Source: Alphaproteobacteria bacterium
Lineage (GTDB): Bacteria > Pseudomonadota > Alphaproteobacteria > JAOXRX01
Assembly (NCBI GenBank): GCA_025800285.1
Contig: JAOXRX010000102.1
Coordinates: 1 to 39,874 of the forward strand
Length of the DNA: 39,874 bases
Reading direction: 5' to 3'
Positions 2,891 through 39,514 of the stretch are shown here, piece by piece (position 1 is the stretch's first letter; each line of letters begins with the position of its first letter). The notes under the pieces were generated by a model. That model saw only the letters and a program-made list of their open reading frames with translations, was not told the DNA's origin and made no database searches. A program made the translations under genes and the position numbers.

Positions 2891-3664
2891 ATGGCACATT
2901 CACCACTTTTAAATGTTATGAAAACATCTGTACAAAAAGCTGGAAGAGCAATCGCTAGAGATTTTGGAGAGATAGAAAATCAAAAAATAGCATCAGTTAG
3001 CTTTTTAGAGAACGCAAAGCTTAATGCTGAAAAAGTTTTAGTTGCTGAATTGGAAAAATCAAGAGAGAACTTTGGTTATGTATCATCTACAGATAAAAAA
3101 GATGGTAAAGCTGAAGAGAGATGGTTGATAAATATAATTGGTGGAGAAGATAATTTTGCAAGAGGAATTCCTCATTGGTCTATATCTTTAGCTCTTGAAG
3201 ATGCAACAGGTGTTGTTGCTGGTGTTGTTTATGATGTTATTAGAAATGAGCTTTATTATGCTCAAAAAGGATACGGTGCTTTTGTAAATAACAGAAGACT
3301 TAAGGTTGGAGATGTAAAAGAATTTAATGATATTATAGTTCTTTCTTCTTATAATGCAAAAAGTTGTGGTGCTCCAAAAACAAGAATCGCTCAAGGGATG
3401 GCTCTTTATAACAAATGTGTTAAAGCTATAAGAAATATGGGTGATGTTGCTCTTGATATAGTGTACTTAGCTGATGGAAAAGGTGAGCTGACTTTTTCTA
3501 ATACAACACAAGCTTATGAGGTTGCTGCAGCTGGTATAATCGCAAAAGAAGCTGGTTTATTTGTTAGTACTTTAAAAGGAGAAAAAGACTTTATCTATGA
3601 AGGTAGCATTTTAGTTGCTCCAGCTAGTTTGCATATGAAGTCTCTTAAATTACTTAATGTGTAA
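2891..3664 (+). CDS. Inositol monophosphatase (SuhB) family protein, catalytic residues lost
   Basis: The 257-residue protein has the length and fold markers of the SuhB/inositol monophosphatase family. The clearest is WLINIIGGEDNFARGIPHWS (78-97), which aligns with the family's W-x-x-D-P-x-D-G-T-x-N-F-x-x-G-I-P. The two metal-binding Asp are replaced by Asn81 and Gly84. The upstream GEE/EE glutamate motif is absent (VSSTDKKDG around 64-72). The distal W-D-x-A-A-G motif reads YEVAAA (209-214), so that Asp is Glu. All four usual metal ligands are therefore changed, and phosphatase activity is unlikely. E. coli SuhB has a catalysis-independent role in rRNA antitermination and ribosome maturation, so a structural role is plausible here but unproven. 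AAGGAG precedes the ATG by 6 nt. Confidence 0.85.
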   Translation: MAHSPLLNVMKTSVQKAGRAIARDFGEIENQKIASVSFLENAKLNAEKVLVAELEKSRENFGYVSSTDKKDGKAEERWLINIIGGEDNFARGIPHWSISLALEDATGVVAGVVYDVIRNELYYAQKGYGAFVNNRRLKVGDVKEFNDIIVLSSYNAKSCGAPKTRIAQGMALYNKCVKAIRNMGDVALDIVYLADGKGELTFSNTTQAYEVAAAGIIAKEAGLFVSTLKGEKDFIYEGSILVAPASLHMKSLKLLNV

Positions 3665-3731: not shown

Positions 3732-4370
3732 ATGTTAAAGGTTTTATCCATATCTACATTATTAGTTTTAATTTCTACAGGTTTATCTCAAGCGGGATAT
3801 GTTGTTGGTAGAGATAGAATTGTTGCAGTTGAAGAAAATATGCAAGCTCCATCTTATAAAGAAGAAAAAGTTGTTGTTATTAGTAAACCAAGAATAGAAG
3901 GAGCGATAAAGCTTATATCTATGGAAGACTTTCTTGCTTTAAGTGAGGCTAAAGAAAAAGTTGTAGAATTAAAAGAGCAAGAAGAAGTTAAAAAAGAGCT
4001 TGTTAAAGCAGAAGAAGCTTTTGTTGAAGAAAAAGTTGAAGTAAAGCCTGCGACTAAAGAAGAGAATATTGCTAAAACAGTTATGCCTTCAGAAGTCTAT
4101 ATATCTTATGAAACTAATAAAACTACATTGTTAAATGAAGATGCTAAAAAGTCTCTTTCAGAAGTTGCAAGAGAAGCTGGAGATAAAACTATTAAAATAG
4201 TTACTTATGCTTCTGGAAATTCTGCAATGTCTAGAAGAGTTTCTTTATTAAGAGCATCTATTATAAAAAATAATTTAAAATCATTGGGTTTAAAAGATTC
4301 TAATTTAGAGGTTCAATCATTGGGAAATGAAATTAATATAGATCAAGCAAAGGTGTTTATAAAAGAATAA
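3732..4370 (+). CDS. Periplasmic protein with OmpA-like C-terminal domain
   Basis: A signal peptide is visible at residues 1-21, with likely cleavage after SQA. A flexible Lys/Glu/Val-rich linker follows to about residue 115. The C-terminal domain (about 118-212) matches the OmpA/Pal/MotB fold: a beta strand IKIVTYAS, then RRVSLLRASIIKNNLKSLGL, the family's LS..RA.....L...G helix. The usual peptidoglycan-binding Asp is not conserved (Ser/Gly there), while the Arg of the RA motif is kept. The stop codon overlaps the next start (TAATG), so it is translationally coupled to a MotA-like channel. It is probably the periplasmic part of a proton-channel-driven envelope complex. Function within that complex is inferred from context. 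Confidence 0.7.
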   Translation: MLKVLSISTLLVLISTGLSQAGYVVGRDRIVAVEENMQAPSYKEEKVVVISKPRIEGAIKLISMEDFLALSEAKEKVVELKEQEEVKKELVKAEEAFVEEKVEVKPATKEENIAKTVMPSEVYISYETNKTTLLNEDAKKSLSEVAREAGDKTIKIVTYASGNSAMSRRVSLLRASIIKNNLKSLGLKDSNLEVQSLGNEINIDQAKVFIKE

Positions 4371-5068
4371 TGAGAATATATGTTTACATTTTAAAAATCC
4401 TTCTATCAATTGTTTTAGCAGTTGTTGGAGGATTTTTTGCTTATGAGTATGTAATAGACTCTTTATATGAAGTTAAAGAGTTGAGTATCATTGTTGTTTC
4501 TGTTTTTGTAGTGGGTCTAATATTTTCTCTTATAAGAATAAAGATGATTAGCTCAAAGTTTAATTGGGTAGATTCTTATAGAAAACAAACTAAAGTATCT
4601 GCGGCATCAGCTGGAAAAGTTCCGTCAGTTTTTAGAAATGTTTATAAAAAATGTAATATGAATGATAAAGATAAGCTTCAAATAGAAGAGTATTATAATG
4701 CGGTTAAATCTTTAGATGTGTCGTTTTCTAGTCATAAAGATGCTGGGATGTTTTTTGTTAAGATATGTTTTTTGACAGGTTTCTTAGGAGCTTTTGTCTG
4801 TATTATAACATCTTTGGGTGATATATCTGAGATGTTTTCAAATATGAATCTAAATGTTGGAGATAGTGTGTCAACTTTATCTGAATTGCAGAGTGGTATA
4901 GCTGGTCCTTTAGCAAAATTAAAGACGGCTTTTTCACTATCATTTACTGGAATATATTTGTCTTGCTTGCTTTCATATATAGATAGACAGGCATTCTCTT
5001 TAGAGAATAAGTTTTTAGTTTATGCAGAAAATTGGTTGCTGTCATGCGTGAATTTGAAAAGCAAGTAA
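4370..5068 (+). CDS. MotA/TolQ/ExbB-like proton channel family protein
   Basis: The 232-residue protein has four hydrophobic segments (about 7-28, 38-58, 122-145 and 185-207). There is a cytoplasmic loop between TM2 and TM3, the MotA/ExbB layout. The TM3 region reads FLTGFLGAFVCIITSLGDI, and the segment before TM4 reads GIAGPLAKLKTAFSLSFTGI. Both resemble the pore helices of this superfamily. In MotA, TolQ and ExbB these helices form a pentamer around a partner that carries the proton-accepting Asp. That partner is probably encoded by the overlapping downstream gene. No flagellar genes are present, so a flagellar stator role is not supported. Confidence 0.7.
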   Translation: MRIYVYILKILLSIVLAVVGGFFAYEYVIDSLYEVKELSIIVVSVFVVGLIFSLIRIKMISSKFNWVDSYRKQTKVSAASAGKVPSVFRNVYKKCNMNDKDKLQIEEYYNAVKSLDVSFSSHKDAGMFFVKICFLTGFLGAFVCIITSLGDISEMFSNMNLNVGDSVSTLSELQSGIAGPLAKLKTAFSLSFTGIYLSCLLSYIDRQAFSLENKFLVYAENWLLSCVNLKSK

Positions 5069-5769
5069 AAAGATTTACATATAGTAATTATACAGATTTT
5101 AATAAGGTTTTTTCTTTATTAATGTTTTCCTGTATTTCTTTTATGGTTGTTGTATTTTCTTTGTTTTTATTAATAAATGTTTTTGTAAAACAGTCTCTAA
5201 CAGACAATAATACAGAAATATCAAGACTCCTTGGAGTAAAAGCTAAGCAAGAAAAAATAATATCTAATAAGAGCAAAGAGTTAAGTAAAGTCTCAAAAAG
5301 CTTAAAGTTAACAGAAAAAGATTTAAAAGATAGGATAAAAACCAATAAGTTTTTGAACTATAACTTAAAGAATGAAAAAGATAAAACTGCTAAATTAAAG
5401 AATAATGTTAGTAGTTTAGAAAAGTTGAAAACAGAAAAAGAGCAAGCTTTGATAAGTGCAGAAAGTTCTAATAAAGATTTGTTTTCTAACCTCGAGATAG
5501 GAAAAGAGGAAATAAATCTTCTTAAAGAGGATTTGGTTCAAAAGAATAAGGATATAGATTTATTAAAAGAAAAACTGGCAGAGCAAATAAGCAAAACAGA
5601 AGACTTACAAAATGATTATGATGTTTTAAAAAATAACAATGTCAGTAAGTTAGACTATATAGAAGAATTAGAAAGCAAAACAGAAGATTTAAAGTCTCAA
5701 ATAGAAAGCTTAAAAAATAAACTTTTAAATAAAAAACCCTTGAATAAAACCGAAAATGACCTTATATAA
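5044..5769 (+). CDS. MotB-like single-pass coiled-coil protein
   Basis: I choose the ATG at 5044, since the longer reading needs a TTG start inside the upstream gene. Even so it overlaps the MotA-like gene by 25 nt. The product has about 241 residues: a short basic N terminus, then YTDFNKVFSLLMF leading into one membrane helix (about 22-46), then a coiled coil of about 180 residues rich in Lys, Glu, Leu and Asn. The Y-T-D-F at the membrane entry resembles the Y-A-D-F of MotB, whose Asp binds the proton. Unlike MotB, there is no OmpA domain; a separate gene two positions upstream encodes one. The assignment rests on topology, the Asp motif and gene coupling. Confidence 0.6.
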   Translation: MREFEKQVKRFTYSNYTDFNKVFSLLMFSCISFMVVVFSLFLLINVFVKQSLTDNNTEISRLLGVKAKQEKIISNKSKELSKVSKSLKLTEKDLKDRIKTNKFLNYNLKNEKDKTAKLKNNVSSLEKLKTEKEQALISAESSNKDLFSNLEIGKEEINLLKEDLVQKNKDIDLLKEKLAEQISKTEDLQNDYDVLKNNNVSKLDYIEELESKTEDLKSQIESLKNKLLNKKPLNKTENDLI

Positions 5770-23050: not shown

Positions 23051-23461
23051 ATGGTAGCATCTCAATTAATAATGAGTTGTATTATTTCTTCAGCAGCTGC
23101 CTATAACATTCCGTCATCAGCTATATATGCAATTATGGAAGCAGAAGGTGGAAAGACTGGACAACTAAGCAAGAACTCAAATGGATCGTATGATTTAGGC
23201 TTAATGCAGATAAATACTTTATGGTTGCCTGAGCTTGCAAAACACTGGGGAATAACAGAAACTGAAGCCGCATATGTATTGGTTAATGATACTTGTGCAA
23301 ATATAAATGTTGCATCTTGGATATTGAAAAAAAAGATAAATGAAGCAAACGGCTCTATGCTAAAAGGCATATCCTATTATCATTCTAGAACTCCTAAACA
23401 CGGCATAAAATATGCCAAAAGAATACTAAATATTATGAAAGCAAATAATTTATTAAGATAG
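23051..23461 (+). CDS. Lytic transglycosylase, SLT domain
   Basis: The 136-residue protein is essentially one SLT (goose-lysozyme-like) domain. The catalytic Glu is in AIMEAEGGKTG. GSYDLGLMQINTLWLPEL is the conserved GLMQ segment, and YYHSRTPKHGIKYAKRI the C-terminal Tyr region. Such enzymes cleave peptidoglycan with 1,6-anhydro product formation. Small stand-alone SLT proteins often serve secretion or pilus machines (VirB1-like). The N terminus (LIMSCIISSAAA) is weakly hydrophobic and may or may not be a signal peptide. The end overlaps the 3' end of the convergent V-ATPase A gene by 9 nt. Confidence 0.85.
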   Translation: MVASQLIMSCIISSAAAYNIPSSAIYAIMEAEGGKTGQLSKNSNGSYDLGLMQINTLWLPELAKHWGITETEAAYVLVNDTCANINVASWILKKKINEANGSMLKGISYYHSRTPKHGIKYAKRILNIMKANNLLR

Positions 23462-25219
23462 TATTTCTCTTATTTCTTTTATATGTGCATTATAGTTCTT
23501 AGAAGAAGAGCTTGAATAATTAAGATTCTTAAATAAAGATGTTAACTTAGTAAACACTTTTCTTACTTCCTCTTTTGTTTCTAAGTTAAAATCATGCTTG
23601 TAAATATCATAGATAAGATTTAGCATTTCTTTTTGTCTCTCTATTGGAACAGAGACATCAACATCATCAAAAGCATCCTGTTGTAAGTAAGCCATATCTA
23701 AAATTGTTCCTTTTTGCAAGATTATGAAATCTTCTAGAGATACTCCTTCTTCACCAGTTACTTGCATCATTTCATAAACTCTAGCAGATTTTTCTAAAGA
23801 TTCTTCAAGCTCATTTACTTTTTTGTTCCAACCTTTTTCAAGATTGTTTTCAAAGTAATCGTGTAATTGTTCTCTATACCTTGACCAAGAAATTAGAGGA
23901 TCAATTGCAGGATAAAATCTCTTGTAAGCTCTGTCGTAAGAAAGCCCTAGAAATGTTTTAACTGTTCCTAGTGTAGATTGAGTTACTGGTTCTTCAAAGT
24001 TTCCTCCAGCAGGAGAAACTGTTCCAACCATTGTTAAGGAACCTGTGCCAGCATTACCTTCTATAACTCCGGCTCTTTCATAAACTCCTTTTATAGATGA
24101 ATCAAGATATGCAGGAAAGGCTTCTTCTCCAGGAATTTCTTCGAGTCTTCCTGATGTTTCTCTTAAAGCTTGAGCCCACCTAGAAGTTGAATCAGCAATT
24201 AGAAGTACATCTAATCCCATTTGACGATAGTACTCACCTATTGTCATTCCTGTATAAATAGATGACTCACGAGAAGCAACAGGCATAGAAGAAGTGTTAC
24301 AAATTATTATTGTTCTATCCATTAAACTTCCTCCTGTTTTAGGGTCAACCATTTCAGGAAATTCTGTGATTGTTTCTACTACTTCACCAGCTCTTTCTCC
24401 ACAAGCTACAACTATAACTATGTCAACAGAGGCATATCTTGATAATAGAGATTGTAAAACAGTTTTACCTGCTCCAAATGGTCCCGGTATGCAAGCGGTT
24501 CCTCCTTTTGCTATAGGGAAGAATGTATCAATAACTCTTGTTGTAGTTGTCAATAACTCTGAAGGGTATAGTCTTTTTACTGTTTTGTTTCTTAACATTT
24601 TCTGAGGAATTGGCTTTCTAATAGGCCAATTTTGTGCAAGAGTTAAATCTCTTTTATTCCCAGAAGAATCTTTTATCTTAGCTATAGGTTCATCAAGTTT
24701 GAATGATCCGTTTTTTATAGAGATAATTTCTACTTCAACGTTCTCTGAAAATGGTATCATTATTTTGTGATCAATGTTAATTTCTTTAACTGTTCCTATA
24801 ACATCACCAGCTTTTAGCTTAGCTCCTTTTTCAACAGAGCTTTTAAAACTCCATTTCTTATTTGGATTTAAAGGTTCTACATAGTCTCCTCTTGGTAAAA
24901 AGAATCCGTGTTTGTTTGCTAATATTTCTAGAGGGTTTTGTAGCCCATCAAATACCTGACCTAAAAGTCCTGGCCCTAGAGTAACAGAAAGCATCTCACG
25001 AGATAATTCAATATCATCGCCAATTTTTACACCTTTAGTATCTTCATAAACTTGAATGTCTGCAGTTTTACCTTTTACTCTTAAAACCTCTGCTTTTAAT
25101 TTATTTTCTCCAAGCTTAACGAATACAACTTCGTTTTTCATTATGTCTTGATTCTCAATTTTTATTTTTAAGATGTTTTCTTGTATTCTTATAACTTTAG
25201 CTGTTTTTTTATTTGCCAT
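23453..25219 (-). CDS. atpA: V/A-type ATPase catalytic subunit A
   Basis: The 588-residue protein is the ATP-hydrolysing subunit. Walker A is GPFGAGKT (246-253). The A-subunit-specific non-homologous insert occupies about 110-200 (HGFFLPRGDYVEPLNPNKKW). The Walker B region lies around DVLLIADSTSRWAQALRETS. FLGLSYDRAYKRFYPAIDPL is typical. The start overlaps the end of the DUF2764-type gene by 11 nt. This is the last gene of the operon, although A precedes B in most bacterial V-ATPase operons. V-ATPase is rare in Alphaproteobacteria, so horizontal acquisition is likely. Confidence 0.97.
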   Translation of the reverse strand: MANKKTAKVIRIQENILKIKIENQDIMKNEVVFVKLGENKLKAEVLRVKGKTADIQVYEDTKGVKIGDDIELSREMLSVTLGPGLLGQVFDGLQNPLEILANKHGFFLPRGDYVEPLNPNKKWSFKSSVEKGAKLKAGDVIGTVKEINIDHKIMIPFSENVEVEIISIKNGSFKLDEPIAKIKDSSGNKRDLTLAQNWPIRKPIPQKMLRNKTVKRLYPSELLTTTTRVIDTFFPIAKGGTACIPGPFGAGKTVLQSLLSRYASVDIVIVVACGERAGEVVETITEFPEMVDPKTGGSLMDRTIIICNTSSMPVASRESSIYTGMTIGEYYRQMGLDVLLIADSTSRWAQALRETSGRLEEIPGEEAFPAYLDSSIKGVYERAGVIEGNAGTGSLTMVGTVSPAGGNFEEPVTQSTLGTVKTFLGLSYDRAYKRFYPAIDPLISWSRYREQLHDYFENNLEKGWNKKVNELEESLEKSARVYEMMQVTGEEGVSLEDFIILQKGTILDMAYLQQDAFDDVDVSVPIERQKEMLNLIYDIYKHDFNLETKEEVRKVFTKLTSLFKNLNYSSSSSKNYNAHIKEIREILS

Positions 25220-25886
25220 GAATTGCCTCCATTGCTAGTTTGTTAAATTTATCTCTTATATCTTGAGAGTCGCTTGCAATTTTCCATCTCTCAATTATGT
25301 TTCTTCTTATTGCATATATTAATATGAAATCAATATCAAAATAATGATCTTGTGAAATCTTATCACAGAATTTCCACATTAATTTTAATATTTGTTTTTC
25401 AAGTTCTAAAGCAGAGTGCTCTTGCATTAAATAATCAAATCCTGCTAATTCTTTACTTAAGTGTTTTATTCCAAAATCAGTTTTATTCCAGTTGTTTTGT
25501 ATTTTAAACTTATATTTTGATAATCTCCATAAATCTTCATTTTTAGGAGGCTCTTTTTGCCCATTAATTCTTTTCCTTATTAATCCCAGTAAAAATCTTT
25601 TTTCTATTGTTGCGGTGATTATTTTTGCAAAGGTTTGATTGTCATACTTTTGTAATAGATCTAAAGATTTGTTTTTAAAAGCTTTGTCTGTTTCACTATC
25701 CATAGAGTGTTTTTCCCAAATAACAAAGTTCTCTAGGTCTTGCACCATTTTGAAATCTTCTCGGCTTAAGTCTTTTATATGTTTATTAAAGTTCAATCTA
25801 GACATGTGAGAAAAATCAGAGTTTATCTTCCCTTGTAATAGGGGAAGAGATGTAACAATTTGATAATAATCCTTCTTTTTTTTCAT
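25209..25886 (-). CDS. V-ATPase operon protein, DUF2764-like
   Basis: The 225-residue protein begins KKKDYYQIVTSLPLL, as in the YY-x-V-x-SLP start of the uncharacterised DUF2764 family. It lies between E and A, exactly where that family lies in Chlamydia and spirochaete V-ATPase operons. It is soluble and mostly helical, with a DFGIKHLSKELAG segment. It may replace the missing subunit C/d or F function that links the central stalk to the rotor. That role is inference. The assignment rests on position, length and N terminus. Confidence 0.7.
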   Translation of the reverse strand: MKKKKDYYQIVTSLPLLQGKINSDFSHMSRLNFNKHIKDLSREDFKMVQDLENFVIWEKHSMDSETDKAFKNKSLDLLQKYDNQTFAKIITATIEKRFLLGLIRKRINGQKEPPKNEDLWRLSKYKFKIQNNWNKTDFGIKHLSKELAGFDYLMQEHSALELEKQILKLMWKFCDKISQDHYFDIDFILIYAIRRNIIERWKIASDSQDIRDKFNKLAMEAIHGK

Positions 25887-25933
25887 ATCTATTTCCTTTT
25901 AATTTTTCTTAAAATTATTTTAAGTAAAAATAT

Positions 25934-26575
25934 TTAATCTTCAATTATTTCTCTATATATAGGTAATAAGTTATCTAATAATAAGTCAGAAATTGCTTCG
26001 TCAGATAAGTCTATTTCTATACCTTTTTTTGTTTCTTTCACAACTATGCCAGTTTTATCGGGTGAACAGAAATACTTTAATTCGACTCCTTCTTTCAACA
26101 TAGTTTTTGTTATGCCGTAAAGAGATAACTTCACTTTTTCTTCATCTTTTACAGGATCTAATAAAAGAATTTCTGTTTGTTTAGATGCATTCTCCACTAT
26201 TTTTATAATCATCTCTTTAATAAGCTTTTTGTCTGACAAGGCTTCTTTTGTTTGCTTTTCTAATTGTTGGATAAAAGATTCTTCAAGAGCACTTCTAAGC
26301 TCAAGAGCAGAATCTCTAAAAGCAGATTTTATAGATTCTTTAGCGGATTTTTCAATCTTATTTGCTTTTTTCTCAGATTTAGATAATATTTTTTTAGCTT
26401 CAGCTTCAGCATTTTTAACTATTTCTTTTGCCTTTTCTTCAGCTTTTTTTATAATTTCATTTGCCTTGTATTTACCTTCATCAATACCTTTTTTGCGAAG
26501 CCTCTTGATAAATTCATTAACACCTGCTTCACGAGGTATATCTGATTTAGTCTGTTTTTTATTCTTAGTTACCAT
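25934..26575 (-). CDS. atpE: V/A-type ATPase subunit E (peripheral stalk)
   Basis: The 213-residue protein has a long Lys/Glu/Ala-rich helix (about 15-110, with repeated KAEEKAKEIVKNAEAEAKK pattern), then a globular C-terminal domain from about 125 (LLDPVKDEEKVKLSLYG). This is the layout of subunit E, which forms the peripheral stalk and binds the catalytic head. It lies between the rotor gene and the DUF2764-type gene, as expected. Sequence conservation of this subunit is low, so context carries much of the call. Confidence 0.82.
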   Translation of the reverse strand: MVTKNKKQTKSDIPREAGVNEFIKRLRKKGIDEGKYKANEIIKKAEEKAKEIVKNAEAEAKKILSKSEKKANKIEKSAKESIKSAFRDSALELRSALEESFIQQLEKQTKEALSDKKLIKEMIIKIVENASKQTEILLLDPVKDEEKVKLSLYGITKTMLKEGVELKYFCSPDKTGIVVKETKKGIEIDLSDEAISDLLLDNLLPIYREIIED

Positions 26576-26587
26576 TTTATTTCCCTC

Positions 26588-27046
26588 TTAATTTAAAACA
26601 GCTGGAATGTTTCCTATTAAAACTAATGCAAATACAAAAGCAAATACAGAGAAACCTTCAACTATTGCTGCTGGAGCAATTGAAATACCAAAAATTTCTG
26701 GTTTGTTTTTTGCTGCATTTATTGCAGAGGCACAACACTCACCTTGTTTTATTGAAGTAATGAAAAGAGCAATCCCTGCAAACAACCCTACTACAAATAA
26801 GGCAATTGCATTATTTGTATCTACACCTTTTGCCATCAATTGTAGCATAATTACAATACCGTAAATTGTTTGAGAAGATGGCATAGCTGCAACCCCAACA
26901 AATTTACCATATCCATTTTCTGCCTCCATCATTGCTCCGCATGCTGCTTGCCCTGCTTTTGTACAGGCAATTGCTGATCCGATAGCTCCTAATCCGATAG
27001 CAGAGTAAATTCCTAACCATCCTAATCCTGTTATAATTTGATCCAT
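26588..27046 (-). CDS. atpK: V/A-type ATPase rotor subunit K (c), Na+-type site
   Basis: The 152-residue protein has four membrane helices, a duplicated c-subunit hairpin as in Enterococcus NtpK. Ion-site residues are visible: Ser58-Gln59 in MPSSQTIYG, Gln101 in IKQGECCAS, and the essential carboxylate Glu130 in AAIVEGFSVFA. They align with Thr64, Gln65, Gln110 and Glu139 of NtpK, a sodium-binding rotor. That suggests Na+ coupling, although proton use cannot be excluded. Only the second hairpin carries the carboxylate, as usual for V-type. The gene overlaps the end of subunit I by 16 nt. Confidence 0.95.
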   Translation of the reverse strand: MDQIITGLGWLGIYSAIGLGAIGSAIACTKAGQAACGAMMEAENGYGKFVGVAAMPSSQTIYGIVIMLQLMAKGVDTNNAIALFVVGLFAGIALFITSIKQGECCASAINAAKNKPEIFGISIAPAAIVEGFSVFAFVFALVLIGNIPAVLN

Positions 27047-28842
27047 TTTTTGACCTCCATTTTTTTAAATGCATTAAACGGATAACCTTCATCCGAAATG
27101 CTCCAGTTGAAAAATTCTATTACATTAAGGCGAAGTCCATGAACAACTCCACTCATAATTCCTAGCCCAAAGTTTATTGCATGACCTAAGATTAATATAA
27201 TGAAAGCCATTACATAACCTAGAGTCGGCATAGCATCAATCACTTGAATTGAAAGTTGATTGAATGTTATTCCTAATGATGCACTGGCCAATCCCAGAGC
27301 AAATATTCTTAAATAGCTTAATACATCTCCAAAAGCTGTAGATATCTTTGTAAGACCTAATAATCCATCGATGATTCTTTTAAATATATTTTTTGATTCG
27401 CTAGAGAATAAAAATACCATTATTAAGCCTCCTGTTAAAAGGTTTGGTGCTATTGTCCCAAATATATTATTAATTTTCTCTCCCATCATAATCATGGGGA
27501 TATACATAATTCCTGATATTGTTACAAAAGCCCAACCTAGACGACTTAAAGCAAATAGTGATTTTCTATGTCTCCATGCTCTGATTAAATTTGCTATACA
27601 TACATGGACAACACCAATATAAATAGAGACTTTCATCATGGCATTTATATTATTAATATCTACAGTTTTAAATTTTCTAGCTAAATCAGCTATTATGTTA
27701 TTACCTGTTGGTTCTGCTCCGAAATAGCTCCCTATTAGAGCTCCCCATATCATAGAGATAATAACAGTAAACCAGCTTAAAGATCTTACTCTTCGTCCTG
27801 ATTTAGATTTTTTTAGCTTGCCATTTGATAAAGCTAAAATTAATCCAAGGACACAAGCATAACCAAAATCAGACATAATCATTGCAAAGAATAGAGCAAA
27901 AAAGAAGAATAAAGCATTAGATGGATCTAGAGTTCCATAAGCAGGAACAGAGTAAAATTTTACAAGCTCTTCTCCTCCAGACAAGGCTTCTTTATTCCTC
28001 AAAAGAGTAGGAGCTTTTTCATTTTCTTTTATGTCTTCAATATAACATGCAATAGCATTTTCATAAGATATGTTTTTTATTAGCTTTACATCACTATTAT
28101 TAATATAGCCTTTTAAGATAAATAATTCTCCATCATCTTGAGAGTAACTCTCAATCTCAAATCTAAGAGCTTCATTGTTTATGTCATTTAAGCTTTCTGC
28201 TAACAAGTATCTATATTTAGTCAGTATAATTCTTCGAGTTCTTATTTCATCAATTTGTTCATTTATATAATCTCTTTCGTTTTCTAAATCTTTTAGGGAT
28301 CGGTGTCCAAATTGAATATTTTTGCCAGGTATGTCATCTGGCTCTTCTTCAGATAGCACTATAGTATAAGCATTAGCATTTTGCTTTGAAGCAATAAAAT
28401 AAATGCAATTTTTTGGCATCTTTCTTAAATTGTATATAGGGATTTCATAAAACCAAAATTTGTGATTTTCGATTTCTTCTTTAGGGATGAATTCAAAGTC
28501 TCCCCATGGTTCAATGCTTTCTATTTTCTTTTCTACTATTTCTAATTCTTCTAAAAGCTCCTCAGTTTTTGCTCTCATGCTAGATATTTCTGCTATCAAC
28601 TCTTCGGGGTTAAAGTTTTCATCTTCTTTTAGCATATGTAATTTATCTCTTGCATTTGCAAGGTATTGCAAATCTTTAAAGTTTTCATTTATTTTTGATA
28701 CAAAAGGAGCTTCTTCAGTGCTAGACTGATGATTCTGATTAATAACATGTATTATGCCTAAGTTTTGTAGCTTGTTTGTAATTTTTTCTGCTTCTTCAGA
28801 GAAACCACAGAGAGTAATTTTCTTAAGAGGAACTATTGACAT
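27031..28842 (-). CDS. atpI: V/A-type ATPase subunit I (a)
   Basis: The 603-residue protein has a soluble N-terminal half with coiled-coil segments (about 1-300) and a membrane half from about 310, starting FFFFALFFAMIMSDFGYACV. At least seven helices follow. FSYLRIFALGLASASLGITF-like sequence (here DVLSYLRIFALGLASASLGI) contains the conserved Arg that lies next to the rotor carboxylate. NFGLGIMSGVVHGLRLNVIEFF is the conserved C-terminal segment. This is the stator half-channel subunit. The start overlaps the stop of subunit D by 1 nt. Confidence 0.95.
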   Translation of the reverse strand: MSIVPLKKITLCGFSEEAEKITNKLQNLGIIHVINQNHQSSTEEAPFVSKINENFKDLQYLANARDKLHMLKEDENFNPEELIAEISSMRAKTEELLEELEIVEKKIESIEPWGDFEFIPKEEIENHKFWFYEIPIYNLRKMPKNCIYFIASKQNANAYTIVLSEEEPDDIPGKNIQFGHRSLKDLENERDYINEQIDEIRTRRIILTKYRYLLAESLNDINNEALRFEIESYSQDDGELFILKGYINNSDVKLIKNISYENAIACYIEDIKENEKAPTLLRNKEALSGGEELVKFYSVPAYGTLDPSNALFFFFALFFAMIMSDFGYACVLGLILALSNGKLKKSKSGRRVRSLSWFTVIISMIWGALIGSYFGAEPTGNNIIADLARKFKTVDINNINAMMKVSIYIGVVHVCIANLIRAWRHRKSLFALSRLGWAFVTISGIMYIPMIMMGEKINNIFGTIAPNLLTGGLIMVFLFSSESKNIFKRIIDGLLGLTKISTAFGDVLSYLRIFALGLASASLGITFNQLSIQVIDAMPTLGYVMAFIILILGHAINFGLGIMSGVVHGLRLNVIEFFNWSISDEGYPFNAFKKMEVKKWIKL

Positions 28843-29450
28843 TATGATTCCTCTCTTTCTTTTTCATGCATTGCTTTTGCTATCTTAGAGCGAACAACGG
28901 CGGCTCTTTCATCATCTGAAATTGCAATTTTTATTTTCTTAATATTAGTTTGAGCATCAGGGATTAAAACTTTTTCAAATAGGTTTACTCTTTGAGTAAC
29001 CTTAAGTACAGCTTTTGAAATAACATCTAATCTATCTTTTAAATTTTCAATTTCTTTATAAAGCAATAAATATTTTTTCATGAAATGTATGTAAGAATCA
29101 ATCCAATGAATTGTATTATAAAAAGAGTATTTCTTAGTTTCAAAAAATATAGATTTTATTTTAGGTAATTTTAGTCCTAATAAGTTTTCTTCTTCTAAAT
29201 CAAGACTTGAAATTTTAATTAACCCTTCAAGGTAGATGTCTTCATTAGCTATCATCGGAAGAGTTTCTTCTATTTCTCTATAGCTTTTTTGAAATTCTAT
29301 TTCTTTTAATTTTAACTCTTTTTTAGCTCTGGCTTCTATGCCTTTTAACTGTTGTTGCTTAAGCTCAAGAGATGGTAAAAATTGCTTATAACCTTTCAAA
29401 GCAGTTTTCTGCTTTGTTAGGGATGATTTATTTAGAGCAACTTTAGCCAT
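28842..29450 (-). CDS. atpD: V/A-type ATPase subunit D (central stalk)
   Basis: The 202-residue protein matches subunit D, the central rotor shaft. It begins MAKVALNKSSLTKQKTALKG and continues FLPSLELKQQQLKGIEARAKKEL. A central globular part and a C-terminal coiled coil RVNLFEKVLIPDAQTNIKKI follow, the latter segment being highly typical. AAAGGAATT lies before the ATG. A strong hairpin lies upstream in the transcript between the small secreted protein gene and this one. Confidence 0.93.
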   Translation of the reverse strand: MAKVALNKSSLTKQKTALKGYKQFLPSLELKQQQLKGIEARAKKELKLKEIEFQKSYREIEETLPMIANEDIYLEGLIKISSLDLEEENLLGLKLPKIKSIFFETKKYSFYNTIHWIDSYIHFMKKYLLLYKEIENLKDRLDVISKAVLKVTQRVNLFEKVLIPDAQTNIKKIKIAISDDERAAVVRSKIAKAMHEKEREES

Positions 29451-29476
29451 TTTGTAATTTAATTCCTTTTTTATTT

Positions 29477-29610
29477 TTGAGAAACTCGCCCCATTCTAGT
29501 ATTAACATATACAAGAAGGGGTTAGTTTCTCAATCTAAAAAAGTTTTAAATCAAAAAATCTTGTATATTAAAATATAACTTACCTTAAAATCTAAAGATT
29601 ATGAAGGTAA
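29477..29610 (-). promoter_or_regulatory. Two hairpins in the V-ATPase operon between the small gene and atpD
   Basis: The first pairs 29477-29492 with 29518-29533 (10 bp perfect TTGAGAAACT/AGTTTCTCAA, then CCCC/GGGG, two mismatches). The second pairs TTACCTT (29580-29586) with AAGGTAA (29604-29610), with an inner AATCT/AGATT. Neither is followed by a T run on the transcribed strand, so they look like RNA stability, processing or attenuation structures. The 213-nt gap holds nothing else I can name. Confidence 0.55.
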
Positions 29611-29663
29611 AAATAATTGATAATGCTTGATCCTTTCTTTTGTTCTAATCTTATTTTAGTTTA

Positions 29664-29864
29664 TTATATATCCTGAGAAAAAGAGCTCTCTTCTAAGTCT
29701 TCTTCATAAGATGTAAGATTGTCGTCAAGTAATTCTTCTTGTTTATGATTATAGCTCTTTGTTTCTATTCTGTAGTAACTACGATTATGAGCTCCGTGGT
29801 TATTGCAAGCACTTGCTGTGTTGTAAGTAAGTATGCAGATTAATATTAAAAATATATGTTTCAT
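29664..29864 (-). CDS. Small secreted hypothetical protein in the V-ATPase operon
   Basis: The 66-residue product starts with a signal peptide (MKHIFLILICILTYNTASA, cleaved near residue 19 before CNNHG). A short His/Tyr-rich stretch follows, then an acidic tail (LLDDNLTSYEEDLEES). The Cys after the signal could be a lipoprotein Cys, but the lipobox is poor. It lies 10 nt after atpB and has a Shine-Dalgarno AAGGAG in AAATAAGGAGATAAAA. I know of no such gene in V-ATPase operons. It may be a species-specific envelope peptide. Confidence 0.7.
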   Translation of the reverse strand: MKHIFLILICILTYNTASACNNHGAHNRSYYRIETKSYNHKQEELLDDNLTSYEEDLEESSFSQDI

Positions 29865-29874
29865 TTTTATCTCC

Positions 29875-31200
29875 TTATTTAATTTCCGTTTTAGGATAGT
29901 ATTTGTTGATTAAGCTTTCTTTCATTAATAACTCTTCTTGGTTAAAGTGTTGAGCCATTAATTCCCACCCTTTGTCTAAAGATTTTTCTAGTGACATAGC
30001 CACATTAACATCCATAAATTTGTTTTTAAAATCTTCTCCAAACTTGATGCATTTTTCATCAAAGTCCGAAAGTTCAAATGCCATCGCTTGTTTCTTTTTA
30101 GCCTCTACAGATTCAGCATAAAGTCTAATCATTGTATTCATAACTTGAGAATGATCTTCCCTTGTTGCTTTTCCAATAACATTTTGCTTCAATCTTGATA
30201 GAGATCCAAATGGATCAATCATGCCATTATGTAAATAGAATTGTCCTTCTGTTATGTAACCTGTGTTGTCTGGGACAGGGTGAGTAACATCATCTCCTGG
30301 CATTGTTGTAACTGATATAATTGTTACAGAGCCAGCACCCTTATAATCGCAAGCTTTTTCATATCTTCTTGCAAGCTGAGAATATAAATCTCCAGTATAT
30401 CCTCGGTTTGAAGGAATGTGTTCCATAGCAATGCCGACTTCTTTTAGAGCATCAGCATAAGCAGTCATATCAGTCATCAAAACAAGTACTTTTTTATCTT
30501 GTTCAACGGCAAACTTTTCTGCTACAGCTAAAGCCATGTCTGGAATTAATAGTCTTTCAACAATTGGGTCAGATGCTTGATTAACATACATAATAGTTCT
30601 AGAAGAAACACCTGCATCTTCAAAAGTTTTTTTGAAGAAGTGATAATCGTCAAATATTAAGCCAAGTCCTGCAAATACAACAATGTCTGCATCTGTTTGT
30701 ATTCCAATTCTAGCTAATAGCTTATTGTAAGGTTCCCCAGCAATAGAGAAAATTGGAATTTTTTGACTTTCAACTAGTGTATTGAAAACATCAATCATTG
30801 GAACATCTGTCCTTATCATTTTTTTAGGCATAATTCTCATCATAGGGTTTACAGTAGGACCATCTGTATCAATTGTAGGCTCTTTCTTTAAACTAGGGCC
30901 GTTGTCCATTGTTTCACCAGAACCATTAAAAACTCTTCCCAAAATGTTATTAGAATAAATTGTGTTAACTAATTTTCCTAAAAATTTAACACTTGAACTT
31001 GTTGATAACCCTGTTCCACCAGAAAACACTTGTAGAGAAACAACATCTTCATATAGTTCAATAACTCTAGCCAGACTTTCTTCTCCATTGTCTTTTTCAA
31101 CAATAGCAAGCTCTCCATTAGCAACATTTGTTGCACGAACTTTTAATATATCTCCTACTATTGATATTATGTCAGTATGTCTTATTATTTTTTTACTCAT
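29875..31200 (-). CDS. atpB: V/A-type ATPase regulatory subunit B
   Basis: The 441-residue protein is the non-catalytic partner of A. At the usual P-loop position it reads PIFSIAGEPYNKLLARIGIQ, without a working Walker A, as expected for B. Other typical segments are FNGSGETMDNGP, DMTAYADALKEVGIAMEHIPSNRGYTGDLYS (quoted in parts) and TMPGDDVTHPVPDNTGYITEGQ. It is the first gene of the operon, directly behind a promoter. B heads this operon instead of following A, one of the signs of a permuted order. Confidence 0.96.
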   Translation of the reverse strand: MSKKIIRHTDIISIVGDILKVRATNVANGELAIVEKDNGEESLARVIELYEDVVSLQVFSGGTGLSTSSSVKFLGKLVNTIYSNNILGRVFNGSGETMDNGPSLKKEPTIDTDGPTVNPMMRIMPKKMIRTDVPMIDVFNTLVESQKIPIFSIAGEPYNKLLARIGIQTDADIVVFAGLGLIFDDYHFFKKTFEDAGVSSRTIMYVNQASDPIVERLLIPDMALAVAEKFAVEQDKKVLVLMTDMTAYADALKEVGIAMEHIPSNRGYTGDLYSQLARRYEKACDYKGAGSVTIISVTTMPGDDVTHPVPDNTGYITEGQFYLHNGMIDPFGSLSRLKQNVIGKATREDHSQVMNTMIRLYAESVEAKKKQAMAFELSDFDEKCIKFGEDFKNKFMDVNVAMSLEKSLDKGWELMAQHFNQEELLMKESLINKYYPKTEIK

Positions 31201-31335: not shown

Positions 31336-34300
31336 ATGTCTAATCTAATTATTACAATTTTAGGAATTGTTTTATTTGTTGTGTTGTCTGTGTCTGGAGT
31401 TATGTATGTTGACTCCAGAAGTGTTAGTGTTAGAGAAAATGAGTACTTAGTTAAATCAGGTATAAATCAATTAGTGTCAGATTATCATGTTTATAAGGTT
31501 AGAAGAAAAGAGTCTTTACCTGTTAACAATTGGAGCAGTTTTATAGAAGTGCCAAGAACTCCTGCTAACATGAGTTGGTCATATGGTTCTAAACCAGAGG
31601 GTATGTATTTCTGTTTGTCAGGAGAAATAAAAGATAGATATTTCTATGAAGATACAATAAAAATATTAGAGGATAGTTTTAACTCTGTGGTAGTTAGCAA
31701 TACTTGTGGAGAAACCTCTAATAATAAAAACTTTATGTTAGGAGATGCAAAAGCTTATACTGTTTGGGTGGATAGTACTTTTATTTCTGAAGGGTCTGAT
31801 ATAGAGAATAGCAATGTGTATGACTTCCAAGTTAAAATGATAGAAGTGGAGACAGGAAAAGAAATTAAGCTTCATGATAATCTTATTCTTCATAAGGGAT
31901 ATGATTTTTTAATAGATATAGAAATATCAGATTCTAGTGTTAAATCTACAGTTGAGCCAGTTAGTGATTTTGAAGCTGATTTTATATGTTTAGATAATTC
32001 TAAGGGATGTAATAATGGATTAAAGAGAAGGCTTAGAGTTAAATCTACATCTTTGTTTATGGATAGGGATTTAATATTAGATTTTGAAAACTCTAAAGGT
32101 AAAGTAAGAAAAATAATTCATTTAAAATCTATAGCAGCCTTTCAATGTGATGCTTTGGATCCTCTTGCTAATTTTGATAAAAGTGGAGACTTTTATCTTA
32201 TAGGAGGAACTCAAGGTTATAAAGTTGATGCAAAACTCCAGCTTTTATGTCTTTCTCAAAATCAAACTCCAGAAGTCTTAAATGCTAAATATAGATTGAT
32301 GTCAGATATAGACTTTGATATAAAACATAATTTAACAAAAACATATCAAAATGTTCAAGCAGTAGAGAATATAAATCAAACAGAAAGCTACCCATTTATT
32401 AAATCTATAAGCTCAACAGTTACCAGCAATGGAGAAGATTGGAATGGCGATGGGGCTATCGATGATATAAATACAGAAGGTTGGATGCCTCTAGGAGATT
32501 TTTCTAATGGAAGCAAACAGTTCTCTGGAGAGTTTGATGGAAACAATCATTATATTAAAAATATTTACTCAAAAAGAACAGCGGGATTTCAAGGTTTGTT
32601 TGGAGCTACACATACAAATTTTAAAGTTTATGATTTACAGGTTTTAGATTCTTATATAGAAAGCTCTGGTGATCAAATAGGGCTTTTGTCTGGTGAGGCA
32701 GATGGTGCAACAATATCTAATTGCTATGTGTCTGGTAATTTAGTTGGAAAAATCTCTAACTATGCGGGTGGGTTAATAGGGCATGTTGATGCTTCTTCAA
32801 AAATTTCTAATGTACATGTCCATGCTGATGTAGTTGTAAACTCAAATGCTTCTGCTTATGTGGGAGAGGTAATAGGTAATTTGCTGAATGGGAGTACTTT
32901 AAGTCAAGCATCTGCTAACGGAGATGTCTTTGCTAAAGCAAATACTCATGCTTTTGTTGGCGGTTTAGTCGGAGGATTTGCTACTAGTTTATCAAACAGT
33001 TATTCACTGGGTAGCGTTTATGGATATGCTTTAAATAATTATGCAATGGTTGGTGGTATATCAGGATGGAATACTCAGAATAATTTAACAATAGATAATT
33101 GCTATTCAAAAGCTCATGTCGGAGCATATACTTCTAAAAGCATATCATCTGCTGGTGGACTATATGGCGATGATAATTTAGGGGGGCTTATAATTAACAA
33201 TAGTTATGCTACAGGTAAAGTTTTAAGTTATAGTGTTGATGGTCCTGCTCGAGCTGGAGGTTTAGCAGGTGGTATGAATGCAACTAACTCTGAGATAAAT
33301 AATAGTTATGCTTATTGGGAGGTCGCTCCCAATGCTTATAGTGTTAATTCTTCAAAAGCAAATGGCGGTTTAATAGGTGTATCTCCTGCTGTAATAAATA
33401 ATGCAAATAATATATGTGAGTATGTAAGTGAATCTACCCCAACAAAATGTACTAAAGCTAATATAGCTTATATGCAAAGCTCTATAAAAGCAAATTGGAG
33501 CGATGATATTTGGGAGGATTTATCTAATGAGACTCCTAAGTTAGAGTGGGAAGTTAAAGGAGATGTGAATTCAGTATTTTCTTGGGGATGTAATCCTTCT
33601 AACCCTTTAGGAGGAATGGAAAAGGAGATTGTAGGGATAGATGAATATTATTTAATAGGGGGCTCTATGGGCTCATCAGCCAGAGCAAAAGAACATCTTT
33701 TGTGCTTATCTCAAAATCAAAATTCAGAAGTTCTTAATTCTAATTACAAGTTAACAGCAGATATAACTTTTGACAATGATTTTAGTATTTCTAAAAAATA
33801 TCAGGATATAAATAACAATATAAGCTCTATAAAAGATGAAAAGCATCCATTCTTACAAAATATAACGGTTACTCTTAGTTCTAATAATGAAGATTGGGAC
33901 GGTGATAGAGTCATTGATGGTCTTAATACTGAAGGATTTATTCCATTAGGTAACTATGCGGATGATTCTTCAAATCTATTTAAAGGAAAGTTTGAAGGAG
34001 GAAATCACTCTATTACTAACTTATATATAAATAGAGATTCAAAGAATTATCAAGGTTTATTTGGAGATATCGTTGGTCCAGGAGAAGTTAAAAACTTAAA
34101 TATTGTTAATGCATATATTAGAGGTAAAGATTCTATAGGTATTTTGAGTGGAAGATTATATTCTGCAAATGTTAATAATGTTAAAACTGACGGTCATATA
34201 AAATCAAGAGGATCTTCAGGTGGTATCATTGGAACAATGGACTCTAATGCAAAAATATCATCAAGTAACTCAGATGTATATATTTATTCCAATGAGGATG

Positions 34301-37300
34301 CTGATTCTCAATTTATAGGTGGTATTGTGGGCTCATCTTTTAATTCTACTCTGAGCAATAATAAATCTTCAGGTGATTTGCTTGCTATAGGAAGTATTGC
34401 AGGTAAATATAATTGGGGAGGTGGAATAACTGGATATTTGAGAAATACAACAGTGGATGGTTGTAGCTCATCGGTTAATGTTTTCTCTGCTAATCCAACC
34501 GCGAGTCATGGTTTTGCAGGAGGCATTTCAGGAGGATCTTATGCTTCTTCTAAAATATTAAATAGTAATAGCTCAGGGAATGTAGCTTCAGTTAATAATT
34601 ATGTTGGAGGAATAATAGGTTACTCCAACTCGTCTAGTATAGAGAACTGCCATGCTACAGGTGATATCGAAGGAAAAATTTATTATGTTGGTGGTTTGGT
34701 TGGCTATGCTTATAATACAGTAAATTTCAAAAACAGTTATGCTACAGGTAATGTAACTGGTAATAATAACTATGTGGGAGGAGCCGTAGGTAGAGCTTTT
34801 AAATCAAATCTAGAAAATATATATGCAACTGGTAATGTTATTGGTAATGGTTCATATATAGGGGGAATGGCAGGTTCTTTATCAAATGATTCTTCTGCTA
34901 GCGATTGTTATGCTGAAGGTAGTGTTAAGAATAATAAAAACTATCATACAGGAGGGTTAATAGGAGGAATATCTAATAATTCTACTGTTAGTGGATGTTA
35001 CTCTAAAGGGCAGGTTAGTACTGTCAATCATTATGCTGGAGGCTTAATAGGTTATGCCAATGGGTCAACTATTAGCGATTCTTATTCAGAAAGTATTGTT
35101 TTAGCTCCAGGCAAAAATTATGTTGGAGGGTTGATAGGTTATGCTAACGGAGCAACTATTAACTCTAGCTATGCTGTTGGTAATGTCTTGGGTGCATATA
35201 ATGTTGGTGGCTTAATTGGACCAATTAGGGGAAGTACAGTTAAAAATACATATGCAAAAGGTAAGGTTGTTGGATCATCTAGTAATGTTGGTGGTTTAAT
35301 CGGAGGTTTTGCCGATAGTAATACATTAGAAAACAGTTATGCTATAGGAGATGTTGTTGGAAGTGGTTATAAAAATGGAGCTCTTGTTGGTGGTCTTTAT
35401 AGTAGTAGTGGTAGTTTGATTATAAAGAAATCATATGCTGTAAATACTAGTTTAACAGCTATAGGAGACAGAGTGTTTGATAAATATAATTATTGCTCTG
35501 TTGGAGTTGATAAAGATTGTGATATTACCTATAATCCTTACTCTATAAAAGATGCTTGGGATGATAATATTTGGGAAGACTTGTTCGAGGAGGTTCCTAA
35601 ACTTGAGTGGCAGGAGGATGGGGATATATCTTCAGGATATGCTTGGTCTTGTAATTCTGCTGATCCTTTGTCTAATATAGATATAGATTCTGGATACTAT
35701 ATGATAGGTGGTATAAAGGGTAATGCTGCATTAGCAAAAAAACAATTAGTATGTTTATCAAATAATCAAAACTATAATGTGTTGTCATCAAACTATAAAT
35801 TAACAGCAAATATTGATTTTAAAGAAAATCCATCTGAAGAAGACTGGAATGGAGATGATTCTCCTGACGGGTCTTCTACTAATGGATGGAGTCCTATTGG
35901 TTATAATAGTAGTAATCGTTTTGTTGGAGCCTTTGATGGACAAGGTCATTATATAAAAAATTTATATATATCTAGTACAGGTGATAACAAGGGTTTATTT
36001 GGTCTTGTATCTGGAGCAATAATTAAAGATTTAGGTCTTTCTAATGTTAATATTAAAGGGAGAACTAATATAGGAGCTCTTGCGGGTCATATAACTAAAA
36101 GTACTTCTTCTGTTAGTGGAGTTTTAGTTAAAGGATCAATATCTGCAAGAGGTAATAACACAGGAGGGTTAATAGGTAATGTTAACTCTGGAGTAAGTGT
36201 TTTAAATAGTTATTCTGTAACAAATATCTCTTCAACAGGAAGTTATATAGGAGGACTTGTTGGTAAGATTTCAAACAATAGTAAAATTATTGATAGCTAT
36301 TCCTTATCAATAGTAAGTGGGGGCTCTATAGTGGGCGGCTTGTTAGGTGGCTCTGTGGCATCCTCAAGTAGTCAAGCAACTATAACCAATAGTTATGCTT
36401 ATTGGAGTACTGCTCCAAAAGGTAGTTCTAGAATAGGTGGTTTAGTTGGAAGTTCAGATAATATTCTTTTAAATAATAATTCAGATAAATGTGAGTATGT
36501 AGATGAATATACTCCTACTAGTTGCCCTGTTGCAGAGTTAACATATGAATATGGTAAGATTAAAAGTGGTTGGAGTGATGGTGTTTGGGAAAATTTATCA
36601 GATTTAACTCCTAAATTAGAGTGGGAAGTAGCCGGGGATATAAAATCTGTTATATCTGGCACATGGTTTTGTGATGCTTTAAATCCCGTATCTAATTTAG
36701 AAAGAGATGCTGATGGATATTATTTAATTGGAGGTAGCTTAGGAGATTCTGACTTAGCAAAAAAACAATTTTTATGTTTAAGTAATTATCAAAATAAGGC
36801 TTCATTAGAAAATGTATCATATAAGTTAAAAGCGGATATTAACTTTAATGTTAATCCTGCTTTAGAAGACTGGGATGGGGACGGTTCTCCAGATGGTACT
36901 AGTGCAGATGGTTGGTTTGCATTTGGTTTTTCTAGTAATGTAAGATTCAAAAATAGTGTTTTTGATGGTGAGGGCAATAAAATAAATAATCTATACATGA
37001 ACAATTCTTATTCTAATCAAGGATTGTTTGGATATGTTCTTAATTCTACTGTAAAGAATATTGCTTTAGTTAATGCAAATATTACAGCATTAAATAATGT
37101 TGGATCCTTAGTTGGTAACCTTAAAGGTTCGATAATAGAAAAAAGTTTTTCTTCAGGAACTATAAAAGGAAATGGAAATAAGGTGGGATCTTTAATTGGT
37201 AGAGCTTATGCTAATTCTAAAATATATGACAGCTATTCTTTTGGAATTGTGAGCGGTTCAGTTAGTATAGGAGGATTAATAGGCTCTTTAAAAAATGGAA

Positions 37301-38223: not shown

Positions 38224-38239
38224 TGAAAAGGAGAAATTA

Positions 38240-39514
38240 ATGGCTAATTTAATAATAACAATGATGGCTATAGCCTTATTTGTAGTCCTGTCTTTATTTG
38301 GAGTTTTTGAAATCAATCCTGATATTGTACATAGTGTTGAAACTGAAGAAATTATTGAATCGGGATTTGTTGATTTAGTTGCTGATTATCATGCTTATAA
38401 AATAAATAATAATGATAGTGATCTAAAAGAAGCTAACTGGACTAATTTTATAAATGTTCCTGCCGCACCTATAAACACAGCTTGGTCTTATGGGTCAACA
38501 CTTAATGGTAATTATTTTTGTTTGTCTGGAGTTATGAATAGCTCTCAAGATTTTAGCAATACAAGCACTTTACTTAAAAGTAATTTTAACACTGTTTTTG
38601 TAAATAATAATTGTGGAGCTACAAGTGATGATACAGGCTATATAAATGGAGCTGCAAAAGCCTTTACTATTTGGTTAGATAGTGATTATATCTCTGAGGG
38701 TAGTGTTATAAATAATGATAATGTTTATAAATTGTCAGTAGATTTAAAAGATGAAGATAGTGGTTTAAGTATTGCTCATGGAGGAAGTATTTCTTTTTAT
38801 AAGAATACAGATGTTTTTATTGAAATAGATCTATCTAAAGATGGTGTGGTTGCAAGCCATAGTAATGTAGCTGATACAAATATTGCTTTTGTATGTGCGG
38901 ATGGTAGCGATGGTTGTAACTCGGGAGCAAATAGAAGAATTAAAATCAATGCTAGTGAAGTTTATGAAAACAGAAAGTTAACATTAACATTTGATTACAA
39001 TGGCTATTCTTTAGTGAGGGATATATATTTGAGTGCTATTGACTTGGTTAAAGTTACAGAAGAGCATGTTATTAATAATGGCAATTATAGCACACATAAT
39101 ATTTATTATAGTAATTTGCCAGTTAAGTATCAAAATATAATACACTCCTCTTATTTTGCTGGAGGGTATTCGTATAATGTTGTTAATGTATATAATATAA
39201 ATACAACAAATAAAAACAACATAAAATTGAATTTAGAGAATTTAAGCTTATTACAAATGCCTATGGGGAAAACATATCATGGGTTGCAAGTCCCAACATA
39301 TGAGGGTTCTGAGGATTGCTTAATTATAAATGGAGCTGGTGGAGCATTATCAGATGTTAATATTCCTAATTATGGTGATAAAACATTTACATATAATACT
39401 ATAGCTGAGGCTGAAAACATTGAGATAATATATGTAAGTACTAATGATGATTATAGCGATGAGGATATTCATAATGTTTTTTATGTTATCAATATAAATA
39501 TAATAAAAGATTAA
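38240..39514 (+). CDS. Paralogous membrane-anchored surface protein
   Basis: The 424-residue protein repeats the N-terminal domain of its giant neighbour. The membrane helix MANLIITMMAIALFVVLSLFG is matched by MSNLIITILGIVLFVVLSVSG there. Further matches are SWSYGS.P.G.YFCLSG, a conserved Cys pair, and AKA(Y/F)T(V/I)W.DS..ISEGS. Similarity runs to about residue 265. The C-terminal 160 residues are unrelated: no GLUG motif, Asn/Tyr-rich, with one Cys. It follows the giant gene after 16 nt with AAAAGGAG as ribosome-binding site, so the two form an operon. It may be a partner or minor subunit in the same surface structure. No enzyme motif is seen. Confidence 0.82.
   Translation: MANLIITMMAIALFVVLSLFGVFEINPDIVHSVETEEIIESGFVDLVADYHAYKINNNDSDLKEANWTNFINVPAAPINTAWSYGSTLNGNYFCLSGVMNSSQDFSNTSTLLKSNFNTVFVNNNCGATSDDTGYINGAAKAFTIWLDSDYISEGSVINNDNVYKLSVDLKDEDSGLSIAHGGSISFYKNTDVFIEIDLSKDGVVASHSNVADTNIAFVCADGSDGCNSGANRRIKINASEVYENRKLTLTFDYNGYSLVRDIYLSAIDLVKVTEEHVINNGNYSTHNIYYSNLPVKYQNIIHSSYFAGGYSYNVVNVYNINTTNKNNIKLNLENLSLLQMPMGKTYHGLQVPTYEGSEDCLIINGAGGALSDVNIPNYGDKTFTYNTIAEAENIEIIYVSTNDDYSDEDIHNVFYVININIIKD

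Follow-up and report, generated by a model that had tools for sequence, protein, structure and literature searches.

SuhB is an odd member of the Nus factors, with an enzyme fold and a structural job in rRNA synthesis, and the use of its phosphatase in Escherichia coli is unclear. E. coli SuhB belongs to the Nus complex and promotes 30S biogenesis (PMC4807359). It forms dimers, binds the rRNA signal RNA and the AR2 domain of NusA, helps NusB/E to join, and delays Rho termination (PMC6614801). According to earlier work as cited in PMC6614801, neither relief of suhB mutant effects nor complementation of suhB in E. coli depends on inositol monophosphatase (IMPase) activity. Here we describe a suhB gene on a 39,874-nucleotide stretch of alphaproteobacterial DNA (the window) in which the residues of the phosphatase site are gone.

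The suhB ORF occupies positions 2891-3664 of the + strand, with an ATG at 2891 and a stop at 3664, and its 257-aa product, P0001, was identified by Pfam, solved-structure match, and predicted fold. The sole Pfam match was Inositol_P (PF00459), at 107.7 bits over residues 4-249 (cut-off 27), while the protein scored below all NCBIfam equivalog cut-offs. The closest solved relative was Bartonella SuhB (3luz; E=7e-38), with E. coli SuhB next. AlphaFold, supplied with a six-sequence alignment, predicted a fold with a pTM of 0.83 and a mean pLDDT of 78, and the top Foldseek matches of this model were all SuhB: 3luz, 2qfl, 6tqn (SuhB within the rrn antitermination complex), and 6ib8 (SuhB bound to NusA AR2). 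TM values to IMPases were ~0.75-0.9 (Foldseek), which places the model within the IMPase fold.

The gene lies directly downstream of efp (elongation factor P; 1985-2554, + strand; Pfam EFP_N, EFP, and Elong-fact-P_C) on the same strand, an order common to 130 sampled alphaproteobacterial genomes and found in most Alphaproteobacteria sampled. Scored with a profile built from intact-type SuhBs only, P0001 reached 228.8 bits compared to 150.8 for L001, a paralogue in the same genome. In the gene tree it grouped with the efp-linked SuhBs (support 82) among long branches, its own branch included. It also carries RDFGE at residues 23-27 (2957-2971, + strand), a class-typical non-catalytic motif. Profile score, tree, and motif together place P0001 in the alphaproteobacterial SuhB group, and by these sequence measures it is the efp-linked SuhB orthologue and no stray paralogue.

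We compared the residues of P0001 in an alignment to 29 alphaproteobacterial SuhB. None of the five metal ligands and none of the four further catalytic residues is left, and the metal-binding motif D47...E70E71...DPxDxT...WD is absent. On the + strand, the K-G-P loop containing the K36 equivalent is deleted (2990-2998), ahead of Lys43, which replaces the metal-site Asp47 (3017-3019). The Glu70-Glu71 pair is absent around V64-S66 (3080-3088), NIIGGE stands in place of DPLDGT (3131-3148; D90 to N81, P91 to I82, D93 to G84, and T95 to E86), and Tyr209-Glu210 replace Trp219-Asp220 of the WD motif (3515-3520), downstream of which GG has become G222-L223. An earlier, sequence-only reading had claimed that every metal ligand was lost, citing Asn81, Gly84, Glu210, and a missing GEE-type glutamate region. 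The alignment agrees on each of these points, and the loss is fuller than stated: Lys43 at the D47 position and the KG-loop deletion had been missed.

Among 64 families with an intact site, E71 and T95 were 100% conserved and W219 was 98% conserved. P0001 keeps 26/41 non-catalytic columns but 0/9 catalytic ones (columns conserved in at least 90%; Fisher p=5e-4, a descriptive value only, because the gene was chosen for its site loss). As judged from the alignment, the loss of the site is far beyond chance, and with its ligands gone P0001 would be expected to lack Mg-dependent phosphatase activity.

Whole alphaproteobacterial genomes were searched with a SuhB alignment, and five ligands (D47, E70, D90, D93, and D220) were counted in efp-linked SuhBs of more than 200 aa, which came from 130 genomes; copies with two or fewer were called dead. 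All five ligands were kept in 97 genomes, four in 3, three in 1, and two or fewer in 29, a ratio (29/130) that is not a population frequency, as the sampling deliberately favored small genomes and weak scorers. This strongly two-peaked distribution implies that loss of catalysis brings loss of the whole site. Four residues that were not used to define dead copies, K36, E71, T95, and W219, were kept in 8, 1, 1, and 2 of 20 dead families, respectively, compared to 63-64 of 64 intact families. Dead copies occurred in 0/21 genomes of at least 3 Mb in this deliberately skewed sample, and the difference in genome size between dead and intact (p=0.005) is biased by the sampling toward small genomes.

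The 29 dead efp-linked SuhBs are spread over 20 GTDB families, and the replacements at the catalytic site vary between lineages. When the dead/intact label was mapped onto an RpoB tree of 69 genomes, 16 changes were required, at least 9 of them forced by well-supported (starred) branches; we read these changes as losses because it is implausible that all the ligands would be regained. Three families (f103, f107, and f44) each contain both dead and intact SuhB. Between families, the losses were largely independent. The sequence-only reading had pictured one lineage dropping catalysis, which was right as to the loss but not as to its being confined to a single lineage, since it recurs in at least 20 GTDB families. 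In genus g183, two genomes with three (G211) and two (G301) of the five ligands share the losses E70 to Lys and D220 to Asn, apparently an early stage of site loss. Two further efp-linked SuhBs, L029 (genome G254) and L159 (genome G328), have Asn in place of a single ligand (DPLNGT in L029, D220N in L159), possibly first steps of loss or else sequencing or assembly variants. The window lineage forms a long, deep branch on the RpoB tree, so its own site loss cannot be dated. SuhB is known as a Nus factor; a natural, recurrent pseudophosphatase SuhB is apparently unreported, as none was described in the papers searched, which were mostly open-access and so give no proof of novelty.

Recurrent loss of the site with the protein kept suggests that the non-enzyme job of SuhB in making rRNA is what evolution preserves. 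We consider it probable that the protein has been retained as a pseudophosphatase that serves rRNA transcription as a structural Nus factor. By analogy with E. coli, a SuhB whose metal-dependent phosphatase site has been erased and whose fold has been kept would provide the rRNA transcription complex with a scaffold that binds leader RNA and the AR2 domain of NusA and helps NusB/E to join. RNA polymerase would thereby be protected from termination, and pre-rRNA could fold properly. For the class as a whole, it is moderately probable that alphaproteobacterial SuhB has repeatedly become a pure transcription or ribosome-biogenesis protein, having lost its site 9 times or more, perhaps 16, under continued purifying selection, with the phosphatase dispensable in many lineages and the fold serving as the scaffold.

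The expected partner domain is present, as NusA of the window genome has a clear AR2 (residues 439-505) that matches the AR2 repeat of other Alphaproteobacteria. AR2 was recognizable in nearly all dead-SuhB genomes examined, and was weakest in G131 and G213. For the E. coli AR2 contacts K251 and L254, the C-terminal helix of P0001 aligns ambiguously by eye, with a Leu nearby and K251 either Met or shifted by one. We found no convincing boxA in the 16S leader of the window genome, where only a weak TCTTTA-like match was seen without an alphaproteobacterial boxA model, and none just upstream of suhB; a boxA scan of the window was uninformative, with 170 matches compared to 149 expected. The papers searched yielded no direct evidence for a Nus role in any alphaproteobacterium.

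We counted one feature of the locus against a Nus-factor reading, namely a terminator-like hairpin with a T-run that separates efp from suhB (2752-2790, + strand). The fold of 2752-2795 has a predicted energy of -18.2 kcal/mol, although a consensus scan did not list the hairpin. With such a structure between the genes, suhB is probably not read through from efp and is probably transcribed from its own promoter. The gap between the two genes, 336 bases, is longer than in most relatives, and at 2555-2760 it holds two imperfect direct repeats of ~100 bases each, ~81-85% identical and each foldable into a long hairpin; no further full copies of the repeat were present within the window.

The efp-suhB linkage across the class would also fit a structural role for dead SuhB in ribosome assembly or translation instead of rRNA antitermination, and Pseudomonas aeruginosa SuhB is called ribosome-associated in a reference cited by PMC6614801. 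However, the best-studied SuhB works in the rRNA transcription complex, and the influence of that complex on 30S biogenesis would give a similar picture. Dead-SuhB genomes also retain the AR2 domain of NusA. We therefore regard a role confined to ribosome assembly or translation as unlikely, though the most credible of the alternatives.

The window genome is small (1.095 Mb, 97% complete) and AT-rich, with a window GC of ~31%, and it is the sole member of its order in the sample. A small, AT-rich genome (1.1 Mb) and a long P0001 branch are also what would be seen if suhB were an early-stage pseudogene, decaying in a reduced genome, and the sample includes no close relatives with which to measure selection: none, intact or dead, was present, no RpoB in the tree was more than 65% identical to that of the window genome, and a scan of genome contigs gave distant IMPases only. 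Decay is nonetheless very unlikely, as the ORF is full-length, the predicted fold is good, and 26/41 non-catalytic conserved positions are kept. Other dead-SuhB lineages likewise have full-length ORFs over long divergence, with dN/dS between species pairs of 0.14 (G008/G321; 0.064/0.454), 0.17 (G301/G211; 0.090/0.516), and 0.17 (G171/G267; 0.38/2.29, with dS near saturation). Purifying selection thus acts on SuhB in these lineages. With no close relative in the sample, the dN/dS values apply to those lineages and not to the window gene, on which selection may act in the same way by analogy.

The conserved columns point in the same direction. Where intact SuhBs are at least 90% conserved, dead families keep a mean of 69% at non-catalytic columns compared to 17% at catalytic ones, a comparison that uses one dead representative per family (25) and is partly circular because dead copies are defined by their ligands. 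Within RDFGE, D24, F25, and E27 are conserved in 97-100% of the families with intact SuhB and in 80-88% of those with dead SuhB, and Asn88-Phe89, retained in P0001 at 3152-3157 (+ strand), are conserved in 92% and 84% of dead families. The best-kept columns in dead SuhB are D24, F25, E27, L54, N88, F89, G129, R136, R138, V139, G196, and E220, although P0001 itself has Lys at 138. The proposal that selection acts on structure and not on catalysis is therefore supported by the fold, by the non-catalytic positions, and by purifying selection in independent lineages.

A second PF00459 protein is encoded in the window genome, as the sequence-only reading had advised checking: L001 (positions 1153-2298 of its contig, - strand; 381 aa), an intact IMPase and a different paralogue. 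Sua5-like and phosphomannomutase-like genes flank it, rpoB is ~5 kb away on that contig, and the protein has a Lys-rich C-terminal extension of ~120 residues. An intact, extended IMPase in the same genome, and the dimers formed by E. coli SuhB (PMC6614801), leave room for dead SuhB as a regulatory partner that tunes L001 as a heterodimer. We find this more improbable again than decay, as L001 is only distantly related to P0001 (29% identity) and no second PF00459 protein was detected in 13/37 of the dead-SuhB genomes, among them all four genomes of family f48, which are listed as 100% complete. Least probable is a neofunctionalized enzyme whose old pocket has gained a new activity, either metal-independent or re-ligated. 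The nearby acidic residues of P0001 (Glu86, Asp87, and Glu210) could speak for it, but site replacements differ among dead lineages in a manner that fits released constraint and not new conserved chemistry.

Several other genes in the window were of note. Downstream of suhB, the + strand at 3732-5769 encodes a weak OmpA-like protein (23.9 bits, under the cut-off), followed by two proteins without a Pfam match that are membrane and coiled-coil in appearance; these genes may form a small envelope gene cluster. The - strand at 23453-31200 carries a V/A-type ATPase cluster with A, B, I, and c-like subunits (Pfam); F-type ATPases are usual in small-genome Alphaproteobacteria. At 31336-39514 (+ strand), a 2295-aa GLUG-repeat protein, which also matches the M26 peptidase N-terminal region, is followed by a 424-aa protein. 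The two begin alike, with M(S/A)NLIIT... in a hydrophobic, prepilin-like N-terminus, and are probably surface or secreted proteins.

Repeated loss of the site with the protein kept amounts to a natural experiment that separates the two roles of SuhB. The dead SuhBs form a ready-made set for antitermination assays, and the columns conserved after catalysis was lost (RDFGE, NF, GxG, R136, G196, and E220) are candidate contact sites. There is also a warning for annotation, as many genes labeled inositol monophosphatase in small-genome Alphaproteobacteria probably do not encode enzymes.

Compared with known systems, P0001 shares with E. coli SuhB (2qfl, 6ib7, 6ib8, and 6tqn) its family, its fold (Foldseek TM 0.85-0.87 by query length), and a NusA with AR2. 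E. coli SuhB, in contrast, keeps all metal ligands and IMPase activity where P0001 has 0/5 ligands, and its AR2 contacts K251 and L254 are not clearly kept in P0001. Bartonella henselae SuhB (3luz and 3lv0) is the closest solved structure by both sequence and fold, is likewise alphaproteobacterial, and shares the RD(Y/F)GE region, but its EE, DPLDGT, and WD motifs are intact. The paralogue L001 belongs to the same PF00459 family, yet has intact EE, DPIDGT, and WD motifs and a C-terminal extension, and lacks RDFGE. Efp-linked dead SuhBs from further alphaproteobacterial families (L066, L067, L077, and L168 among them) occupy the same locus as P0001 and show the same kind of loss and similar retained residues, with replacements that are particular to each family.
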